Below are positions 10,987 through 21,490 of a stretch of DNA of 22,268 nt, one piece after another. A program made the translations under genes and the position numbers. Every line of letters starts with the position of its first letter. Within the stretch, counting starts at the first letter, position 1. Origin of the DNA: a virus; IMG/VR virus record IMGVR_UViG_3300042884_000549, positions 1-22,268 of that record; one strand, given 5' to 3'. Below the pieces are notes generated by a model. That model worked only from the letters and a program-made list of their open reading frames with translations. It was not told where the DNA came from and made no database searches.

Positions 10987-12795
10987 ATGGAGCAAGTAGT
11001 CGGGGCAATTTATAAAGCACTCATGGATGATGAAATCCGTGAAGGTCGGACTGAGTACATCCGGGAGGCAAGGCGCAAGGCCGAGCAACTCGAATGGCAT
11101 TTCGAGGATAAATACCCCGACAAACTTCTCCATGCTCAACATCCATCCGAGGAGGAGTGGATGAAGCAGTACCGGAGGCATCGGTGGCAACCACCGACCA
11201 AAACATCCACCGGGAGAGTTTACAATTTCCTCCAAAAAATTCAACAAGCGGATGACTTCAAAATCCGATGGGAGACCGACTACACCAAGACCGGAATCGC
11301 TGAGAAGGTAGGCAACATCGACAACACATTGAAGAAGTATGTGACCGATGGAATGCCTCGCATCCCGAACTTAGAGACATGGTTGTTCAATGTATTTCTC
11401 AAGACATTCCTCCAAGATGCCAACGCAATTGTGGCCGTTCTGCCACGATTGGATGCGTTCATCGAGAATCCAAAGGAGACAACAACTCTCGATTGGAACA
11501 AACCATTTCCGCAGACATTTGAGTCGGATGACTTGATTTATGAGGATGATGAATTTGTCATCGTTGAAGTCGAGGAATGGAAGGATGAGAATCGCAGAGA
11601 ATGGTGTCAGTATCTCGCCATCACTCAGTTCGGATTGATGCTCTTTCGCCAAGTCAAGGAGATGCGTGAGATTGACCCTTTCGAAGTCTACTTCATGCCA
11701 TTCGATTTTCCTCGCATCCCGGTCATCAAGGTCGGAAATACAATATACGAGGAGGAGGATGGTCATCTGATTTACGATTCAGTTCTCGCTCCGTGTCTTC
11801 CGGCATGGAATGAGGTCTTGTACCGCACCGATGACTTGAACATCCTCTACGCAGTCCATGCACTCCCTCAAAAATGGGCATTGAAACTCTCCCCATGCAA
11901 GACTTGCAATGGCACGGGCGAGGCATACAATCACAAGCACGAGAAGGTATCTTGCGGAAAATGTAGTGGTTCAGGGAGAGCATCGAGCAGTCCATTCGGA
12001 CTGATGGAAATCAACATCGACCGGGTCTCTGCCATCAATCCGAATCCAACGATTCCACCGATTCCTCCGGCCGGATATATCGAGAGACCGACCGATGCGG
12101 TCAAATTGTTCCAAGAGGACATCGTGTACAAGGAGTTCCAAGGACTCAAGGCAATCGGTCTCGAAATCCTTGGACAAATACCGAGCAATCAATCCGGGAT
12201 TGCCAAAGAATATGACCGGAAGGAACTGAATACATTCTGCTTTTCGGTATGCGTTCACCTCGCTGATGTTTACGAGCGAACTTGTTTTCACATCATAGGT
12301 CAGCGGTACAAATCACTATTTGAATCCGGGTTGATGACCGAGGAGAATGTGATGTCTGCTCTGCCGAAGGTGACCATCCCGACAGACTTCGATGTGCTGA
12401 CATCATCGGCCATCTCTGCCATGCTCTCAGAGGCTCGGAAATCGGCCTACAATCCCATCATTGTGAATGGCCTTGAGTCAGACTATGTCGAGAAGTTGTA
12501 TGGCGAGAACTCGCCTCAGAAATACTTTTTGAAGGTCAACAATGCACTCGACCCTCTGCCATTCAGAACCACGGATGAGAAAATCATGTTGGTGGCTCAG
12601 GGAGGATGCACAAAGAGAGATTTCGTATTGTCGAGCAATCTTACATCTTTCATTGTTCAATTGACCGAGGAAGACCCCATGTGGGTCAAGAAATCACTCG
12701 ATGAGCAACGAGCAGATGTGAATGCCATGGCCGATGCGAAGTTGGCCGAAATCAATTCCGGCCTTGTGCCATTGATGGATTCCGGGATGGCTTAA
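10987..12795 (+). CDS. Portal-like protein with DnaJ-type zinc motif
   Basis: This is a 602-aa protein. A CxxCxGxG pair (C304/C307 in CKTCNGTG and C323/C326 in CGKCSGSG) would bind one zinc. The segment GQIPSNQSGIAKEYDRKELN, followed by a long helical region, resembles the part of portal proteins of Bacteroidota phages that carries QSGIAKExDR. The N-terminal 100 residues are highly charged and helical. Portal proteins form the dodecameric ring through which DNA enters and leaves the head. The call rests on recollection of the family and on the nearby MuF gene; a head or connector protein of another kind is the alternative. The end overlaps the convergent methyltransferase gene by four bases, with no terminator between them. 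Confidence 0.7.
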   Translation: MEQVVGAIYKALMDDEIREGRTEYIREARRKAEQLEWHFEDKYPDKLLHAQHPSEEEWMKQYRRHRWQPPTKTSTGRVYNFLQKIQQADDFKIRWETDYTKTGIAEKVGNIDNTLKKYVTDGMPRIPNLETWLFNVFLKTFLQDANAIVAVLPRLDAFIENPKETTTLDWNKPFPQTFESDDLIYEDDEFVIVEVEEWKDENRREWCQYLAITQFGLMLFRQVKEMREIDPFEVYFMPFDFPRIPVIKVGNTIYEEEDGHLIYDSVLAPCLPAWNEVLYRTDDLNILYAVHALPQKWALKLSPCKTCNGTGEAYNHKHEKVSCGKCSGSGRASSSPFGLMEINIDRVSAINPNPTIPPIPPAGYIERPTDAVKLFQEDIVYKEFQGLKAIGLEILGQIPSNQSGIAKEYDRKELNTFCFSVCVHLADVYERTCFHIIGQRYKSLFESGLMTEENVMSALPKVTIPTDFDVLTSSAISAMLSEARKSAYNPIIVNGLESDYVEKLYGENSPQKYFLKVNNALDPLPFRTTDEKIMLVAQGGCTKRDFVLSSNLTSFIVQLTEEDPMWVKKSLDEQRADVNAMADAKLAEINSGLVPLMDSGMA

Positions 12796-13667
12796 ATCTT
12801 CCAAAAAGAGAAGATGTGTTCAATCACCGGCAGAGTCCATCCATCTCCGAGAAGAGATGCGGTATCTCTGCGTGATATTGAGTCGCAATAATTATCAGGG
12901 AATCCTTGCAGTCGGCACATCTCAATCTTGCTCAATGTGCGGAGCAGACCATTCGGTTGAATTACCACCGGACAAATTGATTTTTCAGACCTTTTTCTAA
13001 GATAGTTCTGCGAAATTTCTGAATCATTGTCAGCATAAAAAGTGTCACGATATCTCTCACAAAGAGCTGTCGATTTTTCCCGGTCAGCACTCCCGGATTC
13101 CAATATTGATGCGAATGTGATTCCTCGGTCAATTGGTTGAGGGATGTCAACTTCCTCATCAAACAAGGTCTTTTTTGTTCTGATGTTTGTCCAATAATAT
13201 CGGTCACGCATCTGAGCGGTCAACAAAGATGAATTGATTCGCACCGGGTAAACTCCCAATTCACGAGACATGACTCCAATGTCATTGACATCGGCAGAAC
13301 CGACATTCTCTTGCATGAACTTTACATTCGGATTGAAACTGCGACAATGCTCAAGGATTTCGATGAATGTAAAAAACAAAGAACTCTTGTCTCCTTGAAC
13401 CCCGGTTCTTTTACCAGCAACTGAAAGGTCTTGACAAGGACTGCCCGAAAGAATCAAATCAATAGATGACCAATCGATTTCCCATGACTTCCATTGAGTC
13501 ACATCTCCCACTTGAATGGTGTCGGGATAGTGATGTTGAGTCAGTTTGATTGCTGATTTCTTGATTTCTGATGAGTAATATTTGCCGACCGAAAATCCGC
13601 AATTCTCAAGAGCCAATCTCCCGGTGTTCATGCCATTGAAAAGGCTCACTACATTAATTTGTTTCAT
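12792..13667 (-). CDS. DNMT3-like C5-cytosine DNA methyltransferase
   Basis: This 291-aa enzyme transfers methyl from AdoMet to cytosine C5. The motifs are in order: AdoMet site VVSLFNGMNTGRLALE (6-21), catalytic GSPCQDLS with C78, ENV (120-122), QMRDR (152-156), MCRLQGFPDNY (250-260) and LLGDGWTLPVIEHIF (272-286). SLF-GM-TG, GSPCxDLS, the LFFxFxxILEHCR helix and LLGxxWxxPVIxHxF resemble animal DNMT3 more than typical bacterial Dcm/M.HhaI types. The segment available for target recognition between QMRDR and MCRLQG is short (about 90 residues). The ATG at 13667 is chosen because the upstream extension is basic noise crossing a terminator. No restriction enzyme is adjacent, so self-protection or regulation is likelier than a complete R-M system. 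Confidence 0.95.
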   Translation of the reverse strand: MKQINVVSLFNGMNTGRLALENCGFSVGKYYSSEIKKSAIKLTQHHYPDTIQVGDVTQWKSWEIDWSSIDLILSGSPCQDLSVAGKRTGVQGDKSSLFFTFIEILEHCRSFNPNVKFMQENVGSADVNDIGVMSRELGVYPVRINSSLLTAQMRDRYYWTNIRTKKTLFDEEVDIPQPIDRGITFASILESGSADREKSTALCERYRDTFYADNDSEISQNYLRKRSEKSICPVVIQPNGLLRTLSKIEMCRLQGFPDNYCDSISRRDTASLLGDGWTLPVIEHIFSFWKI

Positions 13668-13672
13668 AATAG

Positions 13673-13695
13673 TAAAAACCCGGACTTGCCGGGTT
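13673..13695 (-). terminator. Intrinsic terminator / attenuator ahead of the methyltransferase
   Basis: The perfect 7-bp stem AACCCGG/CCGGGTT (13677-13683 with 13689-13695) and its 5-nt loop are followed on the minus strand by TTTTT. It lies after the 174-aa gene and ends 5 nt before the methyltransferase ATG. No promoter is visible between the hairpin and that ATG, so the methyltransferase appears to depend on read-through. Confidence 0.75.
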
Positions 13696-13714
13696 CGTTT
13701 CGAGTTGGTGATTC

Positions 13715-14239
13715 TTATTTGATGAGGTAGCGGTAGTGAGGTCTCACGATTTCTCCCTCTGCGATGATGGTGAATGCTCTCACTTTTTTGATGCCATCGG
13801 TGATGGTGCATTCGAAATTCACTCCTTGAAACCCGGAGGTCACCTCGATTGACTCGATGTTCAGTTCCTTTGCCTCTACACGAGCAGACAATTTCTCGAT
13901 GCTCTGAATGTAGTGCCTTTCCGCATTCTGAATTTGATTTGCAACATATCCATCCCGGCCTTGGCGAATGATTTGTCCGGATTTTACATTCATTTGAGAA
14001 TATGTTTTTGCATGGTATGTGTTGTAGAAATTTTTCGGGAATTTGAGATAAGTTTCTCCGGTGTAGTATTGTCCAACTTCCGGCTCAATGCCGAAGAACG
14101 CACACCATTTCTCAAGAGGCCATTTACTGATTTCATATGCACGAGTGAATTCTCTTTCTGCGAATGCTTGAGTTTTTGCGATGAATGCTGATTTGAATTC
14201 GGCAGTCTGAGCGAGGAGGATGTTTGTGAGAGTTGTCAT
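13715..14239 (-). CDS. Conserved phage protein of unknown function
   Basis: This is a 174-aa protein that I do not assign to a function. Residues 1-60 are helical (TAEFKSAFIAKTQAFAEREF). The middle (QIQNAERHYIQSIEKLSARV) is a long amphipathic helix. The C-terminal third looks like a small beta-sheet ending in PHYRYLIK. I recall similar proteins in other phage and plasmid genomes, without an established role. It is the first gene after a strong minus-strand promoter and has a motif-A leader, and the attenuator behind it would make it the main product of this transcript. The ATG at 14239 directly follows the leader and is well supported. Confidence 0.85.
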   Translation of the reverse strand: MTTLTNILLAQTAEFKSAFIAKTQAFAEREFTRAYEISKWPLEKWCAFFGIEPEVGQYYTGETYLKFPKNFYNTYHAKTYSQMNVKSGQIIRQGRDGYVANQIQNAERHYIQSIEKLSARVEAKELNIESIEVTSGFQGVNFECTITDGIKKVRAFTIIAEGEIVRPHYRYLIK

Positions 14240-14262
14240 GTCTTTTTTTATTGGTTAGTGTT
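14237..14262 (-). repeat. Leader motif A, copy 1
   Basis: Read on the minus strand, CACTAACCAAT is followed by an A-run and GACATG, ending in the start codon of the 174-aa gene. The same CTAACCAA block plus A-rich spacer occurs before the genes starting at 17722, 21226 and 21398. It is probably a translation-initiation or regulatory element. Confidence 0.6.
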
Positions 14263-14272
14263 AAAACTTATG

Positions 14273-14304
14273 CAAGTATAGGGTGCGTTTCTGAATCTGC
14301 AAAA
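14273..14304 (-). promoter_or_regulatory. Minus-strand promoter, family member 1
   Basis: The minus strand has TTTTG (14304-14300), exactly 19 nt, then TATACTTG (14280-14273). The second element is one mismatch from TAnnTTTG. The spacer begins CAGATTC, as in the two other copies (17744-17776 and 21428-21460). It drives the 174-aa gene. Confidence 0.75.
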
Positions 14305-14306
14305 TA

Positions 14307-14687
14307 TCAGATGAAAAAAGTTGAAAAAATTTTATTGGTCACCTCTTCTGCGAATGTAACTATCTCTTCCTCAAGCGATAAATCATAATCATGCAACAAC
14401 AAGGACAAATGAACTGACTCATGCATGATGGCAGAAACATCTCGGAAATCGCCATGCATCCGGAATCGATTCAGAAACATGAATGGCAAATCACCGGGAA
14501 TAGGTGATACATTGACCCATCCCCAAATGTAAACTCCCTGAGTCCCCGGTGTAGTCGATTCGGGATGGTCTTCGCATTCAACCAATGACAATCCATGCAT
14601 TTCATCAATTTCGAAATGGCGAAAGATGTCGCAACTACAATCGCCAAGAATCAATTGCCAAGATTCAAATCGATAGACATCAATCAT
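14307..14687 (-). CDS. Small HExxH metallopeptidase-like protein
   Basis: This is a 126-aa protein with a zincin signature HESVH at residues 89-93, inside a predicted helix. It is followed by an acidic helix EEEIVTFAEEV (107-116) that could supply the third zinc ligand. Two upstream in-frame ATGs exist (14738, 14720), but the ATG at 14687 lies one base after the stop of the nuclease gene, which is the usual coupled spacing here. No signal peptide is seen, so it probably acts in the cytoplasm. Phage peptidases of this size include ImmA-like (M78) proteins that cleave repressors, but the rest of the sequence does not establish that family. Substrate unknown. Confidence 0.72.
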   Translation of the reverse strand: MIDVYRFESWQLILGDCSCDIFRHFEIDEMHGLSLVECEDHPESTTPGTQGVYIWGWVNVSPIPGDLPFMFLNRFRMHGDFRDVSAIMHESVHLSLLLHDYDLSLEEEIVTFAEEVTNKIFSTFFI

Positions 14688-14688
14688 G

Positions 14689-15186
14689 TCAATACTTCGA
14701 TGCCGAAAAAAAATCTCCATCGGCACGGAGGAATGCATTTAGTCTATTCGCTATCCCTCCATTGGCAGAGAATTGAGTTGGTGTTCGCTCCGTCTTGAAC
14801 TCGGCCACGAACTTTCCCTCTGAATCGGTGAGTTGGAAGAAGAGCAATTGCCGGGAAAGCATCAGATTCACGATGAGGAAGAATGGGACTTCGTGAATGG
14901 CCGACAATTTCGAGGCATGGTCGAGTTTGTGATACGAGATGAGATATCCTCCGGATTTGCGGATGTACTCAAGAGTCAGAGGAACATTACCGGCATTCTC
15001 TCGTGACTTGACCTCTGCCAAGGCAATCAAGGTATTTCGGCCATCGACCTCTCGACCAAGGAGGAGGTCTGCCTTGTTCCATTCACCTGATGTGCGGAGG
15101 ATGGTATATCCTCGTGATTCGAGGATGCGTTGAACTCTCGCCTCCTCATGGAGAAACCGAGGCACATTGTCATAAATAAATTCCAT
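14689..15186 (-). CDS. PD-(D/E)XK-fold nuclease-like protein
   Basis: This is a 165-aa protein. The motif set fits a PD-(D/E)XK nuclease core: helix E14-E15, then D40 in KADLLLG, then E58-x-K60 in LIALAEVKSR, followed by a helix with KSGGYLISYHK. Such cores cut DNA in resolvases, restriction enzymes and recombination nucleases. The C-terminal half continues with a hydrophobic strand (PFFLIVNLML) and an unusual end. An ATG at 15288 is in frame, but the ATG at 15186 is preferred because it has the motif-B leader and a promoter-like sequence upstream. The methyltransferase lies in the same island, so a protection/attack pair is conceivable, but two genes and an attenuator separate them. The target is unknown. 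Confidence 0.75.
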   Translation of the reverse strand: MEFIYDNVPRFLHEEARVQRILESRGYTILRTSGEWNKADLLLGREVDGRNTLIALAEVKSRENAGNVPLTLEYIRKSGGYLISYHKLDHASKLSAIHEVPFFLIVNLMLSRQLLFFQLTDSEGKFVAEFKTERTPTQFSANGGIANRLNAFLRADGDFFSASKY

Positions 15187-15196
15187 TTTTTGAGAT
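15184..15196 (-). repeat. Leader motif B, copy at the nuclease gene
   Basis: The minus-strand sequence ATCTCAAAAAATG ends in the start codon. The same CTC-A5/6 leader recurs at 20695, 20942 and, without a gene, at 20170-20185. Confidence 0.5.
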
Positions 15197-15207
15197 GTTT
15201 TAACTGC

Positions 15208-15238
15208 TAAAAATAGCACCGAAATCGCAGAATGACAA
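15208..15238 (-). promoter_or_regulatory. Possible promoter of the nuclease-peptidase pair
   Basis: Minus-strand TTG (15238-15236), a 20-nt spacer, then TATTTTTA (15215-15208), one mismatch from TAnnTTTG. It lies 22 nt before the ATG at 15186. Confidence 0.45.
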
Positions 15239-15253
15239 GTCAAATTCATGGTG

Positions 15254-15261
15254 TAAATTTG
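15254..15261 (+). promoter_or_regulatory. -7 box directly before the MuF gene
   Basis: TAAATTTG is an exact TAnnTTTG match ending 5 nt before the ATG at 15267, the same close spacing as at the portal-like gene. It is divergent from the nuclease promoter. No -33 box is visible. Confidence 0.4.
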
Positions 15262-15266
15262 TGACC

Positions 15267-17003
15267 ATGGCAGACCCATTGGATGCACTCACCGGAAAAC
15301 AACGAGCAATCATCAAGCAACTTGGTGACCTTGAGACTGCGCTCGAAAATGGCATGGCCGGAGCATTGCCGAAGGTCTTCGCAACTCTCTCTCGTGATGT
15401 TCAGAGAATCTCTGCCAATCTCTCGCTCGACCCGAATGACCGAGCCAAGACTCTCCGAGAGTTGATTGGGATGAAGCGGAAAATCGGTGACCTCGTGGTC
15501 AATAATCCGGCCTACCAAGAAGAGGTCAAGAAGTTGCTCAACGAGTTCTCGACCATCAAGAACTTGACCGACCGATTCATTCAGACCACCATCGATGACT
15601 TCGTGCCGACACGGAGATTGTACGATGCGATTCTGCAATCAAACATCGCCATCACCAAGGATGCGCTCCTCGGAGGAGGCATCGTGGACAATTTCGGGAA
15701 TGCGATTCAAGAAGTCTTGAAATCCAACATTGCCGGGGTCTCCGACCGAGCGCAATTGATGGAGACATTGAGGCAATTCATCGAAGGGACTCCTGAGCGA
15801 AAAGCATATCTCGACCGATACATCAAGCAGACCACCAACGATGCGGTGATGGTATTCAATCGGGAATATTTGCAGACCATCAGCGAAGACCTCGGTCTCA
15901 AGCATTATCTCTACCAAGGGACAATCATCGGTGACACGAGGCAATTCTGCCAATCGAGAGCCGGGAAGTATTTCACCAAGGCAGAGGTCGAGAAATGGGC
16001 ATCTCAAAGTTGGGATGGTAAGATGGCCGGCACGAATGAAACCACCATTTTCTCGTATGCCGGAGGATATAACTGCCGACATAAGTTGTGGCCGATTTCA
16101 GAGGAGCAGTACAACCGAGGCAAAGGAATTGTTGCACCGAAACCGACTCCTCCTCCGGTGGTCGCTCCACCACCATCGATTCCTCCGCAGATGACCGCAC
16201 CTCCGGTTCTGCCGAAGCCACCGAAAGCACCGAAAGGTTTTGCCGGGGATTACACGAAATTGCCATCTGATGTGAGAGGACTCAAACGATACCTCAACGA
16301 TGTTGTTGCCAAGAAAATTGGATTCCAATTTTTTGATGATATCAATGTATCGAGGGACTTACCAATTGATATGATGCAACAACAAGTGTCGGCCATTGAC
16401 CGATTGGCAGAAACCTACAAGGTTGCATCAAACAACAATCTACAAGTAAGGCCAATTTTGAAATTTCAAAGCACTCCAAAAACCTATGGAGAAGTTGGTC
16501 GGTCAATTTACATGAGCAATGGCGAATCGAGATTTCGGTTCATCAATTTAGGTCACCGGGTTGACCGACATCGAGTTCTCGGAAATTTATCCACCACAAA
16601 TCTTGACCAACCCAAATCTCTTGTGGATTTAGTCAATGAACGAATTGCGACTGCGGTGCATGAATTCGCTCATGTCATTACCTCATCTGATTACTATCAA
16701 AAAAACCGAAACAAGGCTCTGAATGAATTTTGGGATGCCATGAACGCATTGTATTCAGATTACAAGAAAGGGATGCCGAAAATGTATCAAAATGTCATCG
16801 ATGCCGGGGACAAGCATGGATATTTCTCAAAGCAATTCGACAAGGCAGTTGCAAACTATCGCCAAGAATATCTTGGTGACTATTCAACCACGGAGGTGGA
16901 TGAGTTCTACGCAGAAGCATTCGCAAACTTCAATCTCAATTCCCGGCCATCGAAATGGGCGATGGAGGTCAAAAAATTAGTGAACAAATATTTTCTCAAG
17001 TAA
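15267..17003 (+). CDS. MuF-like minor head protein fused to a C-terminal HExxH zincin domain
   Basis: This is a 578-aa protein; a GTG two codons earlier is a weaker start. Residues 1 to about 285 are a MuF-type head morphogenesis domain: a helical N-terminus, then DTRQFCQSRAGKYFT (about 223-237) and GGYNCRHKLWP (about 266-276), the conserved Cys/Arg/His end of MuF domains. Residues about 289-325 form a Pro/Lys/Ala-rich linker (PKPTPPPVVAPPP). Residues about 326-578 are a second domain with HEFAH (465-469) and a distal EFYAE (546-550), which fits a zinc metallopeptidase with a glutamate ligand. MuF proteins sit in the capsid near the portal, and C-terminal effector fusions are known as MuF polymorphic toxins. 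The DNA of the second domain is more AT-rich than the first, which suggests separate acquisition. Confidence 0.9.
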   Translation: MADPLDALTGKQRAIIKQLGDLETALENGMAGALPKVFATLSRDVQRISANLSLDPNDRAKTLRELIGMKRKIGDLVVNNPAYQEEVKKLLNEFSTIKNLTDRFIQTTIDDFVPTRRLYDAILQSNIAITKDALLGGGIVDNFGNAIQEVLKSNIAGVSDRAQLMETLRQFIEGTPERKAYLDRYIKQTTNDAVMVFNREYLQTISEDLGLKHYLYQGTIIGDTRQFCQSRAGKYFTKAEVEKWASQSWDGKMAGTNETTIFSYAGGYNCRHKLWPISEEQYNRGKGIVAPKPTPPPVVAPPPSIPPQMTAPPVLPKPPKAPKGFAGDYTKLPSDVRGLKRYLNDVVAKKIGFQFFDDINVSRDLPIDMMQQQVSAIDRLAETYKVASNNNLQVRPILKFQSTPKTYGEVGRSIYMSNGESRFRFINLGHRVDRHRVLGNLSTTNLDQPKSLVDLVNERIATAVHEFAHVITSSDYYQKNRNKALNEFWDAMNALYSDYKKGMPKMYQNVIDAGDKHGYFSKQFDKAVANYRQEYLGDYSTTEVDEFYAEAFANFNLNSRPSKWAMEVKKLVNKYFLK

Positions 17004-17006
17004 AAA

Positions 17007-17240
17007 ATGGAAGCAGTTGAATTACCATGTGCAACTTGTCAGCACTATCGATTTTTCAAAAAAGTCAATTGTGAGGCATTTCCGGATGGAATACCTGAGG
17101 ACATCATCCTTGGAACTAATCGGCACACCGAGATTCAACCCGGTCAAGCAAATGACTTCGTGTATTTACCGATGCCATGGGTTGCAGACCCATCGATTCC
17201 GCAACCTTTCATTGACCCTCGGAAATTGGAATCTGACTAA
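17007..17240 (+). CDS. Small Cys-rich phage protein next to MuF
   Basis: This is a 77-aa protein three bases after the MuF stop. C8xxC11xH13 and C22 could hold a metal. The segment CEAFPDGIPEDIILGTNRHT belongs to a widely occurring small phage protein pattern (CxxCxHF...CxAFPxGIP...H) often found beside head morphogenesis genes. Its role is not established; structural or head assembly accessory is plausible from context. Its end overlaps the convergent 161-aa gene by four bases. Confidence 0.8.
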   Translation: MEAVELPCATCQHYRFFKKVNCEAFPDGIPEDIILGTNRHTEIQPGQANDFVYLPMPWVADPSIPQPFIDPRKLESD

Positions 17241-17722
17241 TTCAGATTCTTGTTTTGAATCCATGCATGATGCTCTTCTGAATACACGAGGAGACCATGG
17301 CGAACGAGGACATCATGTTTCCATTTCCAATTGCTCCTCCGCTCTCTGCGATTGTACGAGGCATTCCCGAAGTTGATGATGAGGATGTTCTTCTCCTCAT
17401 TGAACCGGACTGATGCTCCCAAATTTGTGAACCCATCGCCTCTCCAATTCTTGAGGTCAAATTTGCCTTTCCCGAAAGCAGATGACCAAACATGAATGGT
17501 GTCTAATCCATCGAAGTCAATTTTTTCAACCCGGTCAACCGGGAATGTCAAGTAAATGTCTTGAGACTTCTTGATTGATGCCTTGGCCTTACGGACTGCA
17601 TCCGGATTCGGATTGTCCATGGCGATTGCCTTGTTGACACATGACCATCCGTATGGTGCGTTTTTGTAAAAGACCGGGGATGTGAGGACTTCTTCGCAGA
17701 GTGAGCAATGGCAGAGACTCAT
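17237..17722 (-). CDS. Zinc-ribbon-like protein of unknown function
   Basis: This is a 161-aa protein. The N-terminus (MSLCHCSLCEEVL) with C4, C6, C9 and a later C28 could bind zinc. A short Lys-rich helix follows (PDAVRKAKASIKKSQ), then a beta-rich C-terminal 100 residues with many Trp/Phe and basic residues (ASYNRRERRSNWKWKH). This suggests nucleic-acid binding, but no family was recognised. It has a motif-A leader and the second copy of the minus-strand promoter. Its end overlaps the convergent 77-aa gene by four bases, with no terminator between them. Confidence 0.78.
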   Translation of the reverse strand: MSLCHCSLCEEVLTSPVFYKNAPYGWSCVNKAIAMDNPNPDAVRKAKASIKKSQDIYLTFPVDRVEKIDFDGLDTIHVWSSAFGKGKFDLKNWRGDGFTNLGASVRFNEEKNILIINFGNASYNRRERRSNWKWKHDVLVRHGLLVYSEEHHAWIQNKNLN

Positions 17723-17740
17723 AATTCAATTGGTTAGTGA
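17720..17740 (-). repeat. Leader motif A, copy 2
   Basis: The minus-strand CACTAACCAATTGAATTATG ends in the start codon of the 161-aa gene. It shares ACTAACCAA with the copies at 14237-14262, 21224-21250 and 21396-21425, but lacks the long A-run. Confidence 0.55.
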
Positions 17741-17743
17741 GTG

Positions 17744-17776
17744 CAAAGCAACACTAACTTTTCGAATCTGCAAAAT
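17744..17776 (-). promoter_or_regulatory. Minus-strand promoter, family member 2
   Basis: TTTTG (17775-17771), 19 nt, then TTGCTTTG (17751-17744). The spacer begins CAGATTCGAAAA, identical to member 3. It is one mismatch from TAnnTTTG at the -7 box. Confidence 0.8.
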
Positions 17777-17794
17777 ATGAGGCAAAAAAAAGTT

Positions 17795-21398: not shown

Positions 21399-21425
21399 GA
21401 CTTTTTTTTGTACTTGGTTAGTGAG
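21396..21425 (-). repeat. Leader motif A, copy 4
   Basis: The minus-strand CACTCACTAACCAAGTAC is followed by eight A and GTCATG, the start codon of the 47-aa gene. Confidence 0.6.
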
Positions 21426-21427
21426 TG

Positions 21428-21460
21428 CAAAGCAATATGCTTTTTTCGAATCTGCAAAAT
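21428..21460 (-). promoter_or_regulatory. Minus-strand promoter, family member 3
   Basis: TTTTG (21459-21455), 19 nt, then TTGCTTTG (21435-21428). The spacer start CAGATTCGAAAA and the following GCACTCACTAACCAA are identical to member 2. It drives island III. Confidence 0.8.
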
Positions 21461-21468
21461 ACTGATGC

Positions 21469-21490
21469 AAAATAATTCAATTATTTTTTT
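21469..21490. repeat. AT-only inverted repeat between divergent units
   Basis: AAAATAATT (21469-21477) and AATTATTTT (21479-21487) are perfect inverted repeats around one C, running into more T. It lies between the minus promoter and the plus gene at 21551; an operator or weak terminator is possible. Confidence 0.35.

Follow-up and report, generated by a model that had tools for sequence, protein, structure and literature searches.

We analyzed a viral contig of 22,268 nucleotides (nt; IMG/VR record IMGVR_UViG_3300042884_000549; the whole stretch is referred to as the window) with a focus on the protein encoded at positions 15267 to 17003. An earlier note on this DNA had read it as a MuF head protein with a metallopeptidase cargo. 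Here, we find that the protein joins a MuF-type N-terminal domain, an assignment accepted with caution, to a C-terminal zincin domain, and that the gene directly downstream, which the cargo account had overlooked, encodes a small partner with an invariant set of three cysteines and one histidine (CCCH). Zincin and partner form a cassette that is gained, lost and exchanged, with the boundary located where the MuF linker ends.

Linkage of zincin and CCCH partner

The reading frame is uninterrupted on the plus strand from an ATG at 15267 to the stop at 17003 and encodes 578 amino acids (aa); a GTG at 15261 is a possible alternative start. The 77-aa partner open reading frame (ORF) starts 3 nt past the zincin stop. 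A scan based on the zincin alignment yielded 119 confirmed viral loci (best 80 kept). A partner-family ORF is located directly behind the zincin in 79/79 checkable loci, while the remaining one (L070) leaves its contig. The 84 partners extracted (including those of the window, L002-L005 and L010) are 54-77 aa long and start between -11 and +7 nt from the zincin stop, a spacing that suggests coupled translation of both genes. All 51 aligned partner copies share Cys8, Cys11, Cys22, His40 and Gln47, and the respective invariant C, C, C, H set suggests zinc binding.

The reverse search, i.e., starting from the partner, confirmed 97 loci (best 80 kept). Upstream of the partner, all 80 show either a zincin (78) or a zincin tail (2; L149 and L152, in which the tail alone stands at the contig start). 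An automatic zincin test is passed by 75 of these loci, and HExxH ORFs were identified on inspection in L135, L146 and L168. The partner has no match in Pfam, no clear match among PDB sequences and, like the window's MuF protein, none in NCBIfam. It matches a PHROG family of unknown function (phrog_33375; E 0.0003 for the window copy, 1.6e-6 for the copy of phage lotta8-1, see below).

Gain, loss and exchange of the cassette

The scan for the window's MuF subfamily confirmed 123 loci (best 80 kept), one of which leaves its contig. Among the 79 checkable relatives, 5 carry zincin and partner, and 74 end at 287-290 aa with neither. That is, the cassette is dispensable, and the C-terminal domain is not conserved along with the rest of MuF; such conservation would have spoken against a cargo.

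The position of the exchange is visible from loci L004 and L005. Their amino acid identity is 99.0% in MuF and 96.7% in the linker, and drops to 37.1% in the zincin and 54.5% in the partner. The adjoining DNA is 95.9% identical upstream and 97.0% downstream of this block, and L005 holds one extra gene inside it. Zincin and partner are thus swapped between L004 and L005 as one block, in agreement with the earlier idea of a cargo that was swapped in.

Similar pairs from another MuF cluster were found when comparing proteins only: L040/L030 (MuF 96%, zincin 37%, partner 54%), L090/L072 (98%, 46%, 67%), L082/L074 (98%, 50%, 66%) and L046/L037 (96%, 52%, 72%). We also compared pairwise distances for 36 of the 40 loci of this cluster, with which other N-termini are not alignable (L026, L064 and L079 lack their 5' end; for L063 no partner was extracted). 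Partner distances track those of the zincin (partial Mantel 0.53, 0/2000 permutations) and not those of MuF (0.07).

Base composition follows the same boundary. In the window, GC content and GC content at third codon positions are 0.506 and 0.625 for MuF vs. 0.415 and 0.433 for the zincin. The drop has the same direction in all five contigs compared (window, L002-L005), with a GC step from about 0.51 to 0.35 at the boundary in L004 and L005. The AT-rich shift that had been placed at about 16300 is therefore real, but its position is slightly earlier, i.e., where the linker passes into the zincin domain (about 16220).

Active site and predicted fold of the zincin

A Pro-rich linker followed by a separate domain with HEFAH (residues 465-469) and a distal EFYAE (residues 546-550) is present as initially described. 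Across 54 aligned domains with a mean column identity of 35%, H465, E466, H469, Y539, E546, A549 and E550 are invariant. HExxH is found in 80/80 ORFs that were retrieved by patterns not containing it, which is far beyond chance, and a Tyr seven residues ahead of the distal Glu is found in 86/86 zincins. Conservation of EFxAE is partly selected, since it belonged to a search pattern. The spacing of Tyr539 and Glu546 equals that of Tyr190 and Glu197 in PPEP-3 (PMC12828418), and by this analogy E546 is the probable third zinc ligand.

The AlphaFold2 (AF2) model of the domain, built from 54 sequences, reaches a predicted local distance difference test score (pLDDT) of 93 and a predicted template modelling score (pTM) of 0.92. 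When aligned with VIA-align, the top 13 rows are anthrax lethal factor (Z 8.1-8.7; best alignment with Z 8.7 over 186 residues at 4.7 A), followed by the putative metal-dependent hydrolase 3khi (Z 7.4) and by PPEPs, whose Z values are about 6-7 (PPEP-1 7.0, PPEP-3 6.9); Z values near 8 can be common, such that the fold match is to be taken with caution. In Pfam, ATLF is never matched above its gathering score: 8/54 members match at E<=0.1 (best 0.003), and the window protein does not. Model and residues together support a zincin with an intact active-site signature and a lethal-factor/PPEP-like model, in line with the proposed metallopeptidase cargo. A structural fold lacking a zinc site, the outcome that would have contradicted it, was not found. 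PADLOC matched none of 7 proteins from the window or its relatives, and no plasmid was matched in a search with the L046 zincin.

MuF-type domain and feature coordinates

Residues 1-288 form a mostly helical head-protein domain. Pfam does not recognize MuF in the window's subfamily, PHROG matches are weak, and hhalign profile-profile comparison with PF04233-positive relatives gives no match. The assignment was therefore taken from structure. The AF2 model of residues 1-292 (35 sequences) has a best pLDDT of 86 and a pTM of 0.80, with the five models spanning 62-86. Compared with BFVD, it yields 75 viral matches at E<=0.001 (best 4.9e-10), and the named rows among the best 50 of these are mostly minor capsid or head morphogenesis proteins (query template modelling score 0.30-0.72). 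The PDB list (helical bundles, dynamin-like stalks) is uninformative. A MuF head protein, as first proposed, is thus borne out by the predicted fold and not by Pfam.

Among all 54 zincin proteins, 38 match Phage_Mu_F (PF04233) at E<=0.1. The zincin protein of L050 has a portal-like N-terminal region (TIGR01540, E 6e-13, under the model's cut-off). Coordinates of all features are provided in Table 1.

Table 1. Coordinates of the features discussed, in the window unless contig L253 is named.
Feature	Coordinates	Strand	Evidence
MuF-type minor head domain, residues 1-288 (accepted with caution)	15267..16130	+	AF2 and BFVD; 80 relatives, 74 ending at 287-290 aa
Pro-rich linker, residues 289-318; exchange boundary	16131..16220	+	96.7% aa identity L004 vs. 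L005; zincin past the linker 37%
Zincin domain, residues 319-578 (supported by model)	16221..17000	+	AF2 pLDDT 93, VIA-align, 54-sequence alignment
HEFAH, residues 465-469; predicted zinc ligands H465 and H469, predicted general base E466	16659..16673	+	HExxH in 80/80 ORFs; roles inferred from PPEP-3
Tyr539-x6-Glu546; predicted oxyanion Tyr and third zinc ligand	16881..16904	+	86/86; Tyr190/Glu197 spacing of PPEP-3, from which the role is inferred
CCCH partner, 77 aa; C8, C11, C22 and H40 invariant	17007..17240	+	Linkage counts, alignment
MuF protein with presumed JAMM-like motif (contig L253)	3180..4634	-	
CCCH ORF (contig L253)	2941..3183	+	

Phage setting and related loci

We surveyed 20 records for their gene content, 15 with the cassette and 5 with MuF only (contigs of 30-46 kb, completeness not given). 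None of them shows a tyrosine integrase, serine recombinase or rve domain (PF00589, PF00239, PF00665). Another head protease is present in 12/15 cassette records (ClpP-like in 3, S78-type in 9). Neither type is found in the records of L005, L066 and L068 nor in the 5 MuF-only records. The window's lineage is among those without a recognized head protease, and so are its zincin-less cousins.

Cultured phages matching the whole zincin are restricted to lotta8-1 (two records) and lotta8-2; Gordonia phage DalanDe gives a short weak match. Flavobacterium phage vB_FspM_lotta8-1 (L057), which is treated as lytic (PMC7077304), encodes the zincin and CCCH pair as gp028/gp029. Its zincin is 29% identical to that of the window over residues 350-576, and the CCCH gene again lies directly behind. 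In contrast to the window, its MuF belongs to another, PF04233-positive subfamily; the record assigns the pair no function.

In contigs of cellular genomes, one narrow pattern identified 6 loci with related domains in metagenome-assembled genomes (MAGs), such that rarity in cellular genomes is not proven by this count. Three of the six (L091, L092, L094) were scanned and are PF04233-positive. The MuF protein of L094 (3982-7083) carries two consecutive HExxH domains, the first of which is near Pfam ATLF (E 5e-6, just under the cut-off).

The CCCH family extends beyond the cassette. In phage Jenst and six related contigs (7/7), a HEIGH protein of 372-373 aa is followed by a CCCH gene at a distance of 71-243 nt downstream. 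In Jenst, the HEIGH protein is annotated as putative low-copy virion protein, and one small gene separates it from the CCCH gene. Since the partners of this group are 76-100% identical to the query partner, they represent few events. The likeness between the HEIGH protein and the window's zincin is not significant (hhalign probability 3%). Furthermore, a CCCH ORF is arranged tail-to-tail with a PF04233-positive MuF protein in L252, a gut phage record, and in contig L253. The C-terminus of this MuF protein holds an HxHP...SxxD motif, which we take to be JAMM-like.

In the window, a portal-like gene (10987-12795, plus strand; PHROG portal E 0.0013) is located upstream of MuF. Its product shows a DnaJ-type CxxCxGxG stretch (Pfam PF00684, E 0.0014, under the cut-off), which the portals of L007 and L009 show as well. 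Portal and MuF, which adjoin directly in L007, are parted here by a minus-strand island (12792-15288) encoding a C5 DNA methylase and a PDDEXK_14 nuclease. A second HExxH ORF (14307-14738, minus strand; 143 aa) has HESVH and later acidic residues, no Pfam match at E<=0.1 and a weak PHROG match. Behind the partner, a 161-aa gene (17237-17722, minus strand) has counterparts in L002, L005 and L006, with none listed at the matching place in L003 or L004. A short repeat (17730-17787 and 21414-21472; 60 bp, 87%), together with a 31-bp piece at 14288-14318, lies in or near intergenic gaps.

Relation to known systems

MuF polymorphic toxins (PMC5576092) share with the window protein the MuF N-terminus, the enzymatic C-terminus and a small ORF directly behind. 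Here, the N-terminus is recognizable by fold while sequence tests fail for the window's subfamily, and the exchangeable C-terminal module with its small ORF swaps between zincin alleles rather than cargo types on the window's MuF. The respective study found the toxins in temperate phages only and with diverse small ORFs (PMC5576092). In contrast, none of the 20 records surveyed shows an integrase, recombinase or rve domain that would point to a temperate carrier, and one conserved CCCH partner family is found.

Lethal factor and PPEPs provide the best structural alignments and share HExxH as well as Tyr-x6-Glu, the latter as in PPEP-3 (PMC12828418). They differ by an identity of only 12-17%, and the Pfam ATLF gathering score is not reached. 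The distance from the second His to the Tyr is 48-70 residues in the zincins studied here vs. 33 in PPEP-3 (157 to 190; PMC12828418). Furthermore, they are secreted, whereas the window's zincin is probably head-anchored. Tox-ALF of polymorphic toxins is likewise a lethal-factor-like peptidase in a swappable C-terminal toxin domain, but is described with delivery by Photorhabdus virulence cassettes (PVC) and type II secretion systems (T2SS) together with Imm-SuFu (PMC3482391) rather than with MuF and a CCCH partner. Polyvalent proteins (N4 vRNAP, P1 DdrB) also hold zincins in virion-packaged proteins, which are related to lethal factor by profile (PMC5512222), and N4 vRNAP is found in the VIA-align results of the window's zincin (Z 3.8). 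These are large multidomain proteins, and the accessible text of that study mentions no CCCH partner (PMC5512222). A literature search in titles and abstract openings found no description of this CCCH partner, nor of virulent phages with a pair of this kind, although an earlier description may exist.

Discussion

Our preferred reading, held with about even confidence, is that of a MuF-anchored protease effector that is ejected with the DNA, and of a translationally coupled partner by which it is kept in check within the producing cell. The zinc protease would be tethered by its MuF domain within the head, close to the portal, and would enter the bacterium along with the DNA to cut a host protein there, perhaps one involved in defence. 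The CCCH protein, whose start codon lies at the zincin stop or directly beside it, would bind newly made zincin and restrain it until packaging. We infer delivery from MuF biology, i.e., the location of MuF proteins at the portal as exemplified by SPP1 gp7 (PMC5576092), and restraint from how strictly the two genes are paired, how they are spaced and how they are exchanged together. Divergent zincins are accompanied by a single conserved partner family, which suggests that the partner targets the active site common to them or the zinc, unlike a classical specific immunity protein. By analogy, the mode of action may resemble that of MuF polymorphic toxins, but the phages are apparently lytic and the partners belong to a single conserved family.

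Several observations weigh against this reading. With regard to virion presence, toxicity and proteolysis, it is built on sequences and models. The annotation of the lotta8-1 zincin as 'structural protein' is based on similarity, and the term 'mass spectrometry' is absent from the respective paper (PMC7077304). Foldseek finds nothing in the PDB for the zincin model at E<=0.001, such that the lethal-factor/PPEP likeness stems from the aligner plus the residues. The exchangeable cargoes expected earlier do exist as divergent zincin alleles, but this is the one cargo type on the window's MuF subfamily, with no other among its 79 checkable relatives. The two 80-locus sets overlap and hold near-duplicates (at 90%, 57 of 86 proteins are left), and the partner search patterns were derived from zincin-linked copies; the 80 loci are therefore not 80 independent events. 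None of the 5 MAG loci having downstream sequence shows a CCCH gene within 400 nt. Adjacency by itself might make zincin and partner travel together. Finally, the partner is better conserved than the zincin (mean identity 53% vs. 40% in the 36 loci of the distance test), which is unusual for a specific immunity protein.

This conservation of one partner family across divergent zincins, together with the zinc binding suggested by its invariant residues, also fits a variant in which the injected protease effector is accompanied by a zinc-loading or packaging chaperone, or by a partner that is itself an early-acting protein. Strict pairing and co-exchange suit chaperone and silencer equally, and we regard the variant as rather unlikely. 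We are similarly doubtful about a virion-processing protease that cleaves its own MuF or linker, or other head proteins, at assembly or ejection, with the partner timing the cleavage. Zincins of polyvalent proteins, e.g., of P1 DdrB, are proposed to self-process (PMC5512222), PPEPs cut between prolines (PMC12828418) and the window's linker is Pro-rich; furthermore, the records of L005, L066 and L068 show no ClpP- or S78-type protease. However, 74/79 checkable MuF relatives do without the zincin, and a further head protease is encoded in 12/15 cassette records, while neither zincin nor recognized head protease is seen in the 5 MuF-only records. That is, the zincin does not accompany the head module as its sole protease. 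Given this presence/absence pattern (zincin in 5/79 MuF relatives) and the separate proteases, a head maturation role is unlikely. Pro-Pro self-cleavage is rejected as a general rule, with PP in the linker of only 19/56 representatives. A catalytically dead, purely structural zincin is very improbable: some MuF-borne phage effector domains are inactive, e.g., PBECR of Mu gp30 (PMC5512222), but here HExxH (80/80) and Tyr-x6-Glu (86/86) are retained, with a mean column identity of 35% across the 54 aligned domains.

Returning to an injected effector with a restraining partner, a wider and distinctly more tentative picture is that apparently lytic phages possess their own polymorphic effector system. 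Here, a head-anchored zinc protease would be injected in divergent alleles, each silenced by the small zinc-binding partner via the conserved active site. The partner family, which would also serve the Jenst virion zincin and perhaps the gut-phage MuF protein with the presumed JAMM-like motif, might control metalloproteases packaged in virions more generally.

Lysogeny is the context with which MuF toxins have been associated. For a protease-partner pair that is swapped among aquatic phages of apparently virulent lifestyle, a different explanation is needed, possibly an arms race over a host target of the injected protein. The cultured phage lotta8-1 makes this protease-partner system testable, and the CCCH partner is a candidate for a small protein that controls zinc proteases.
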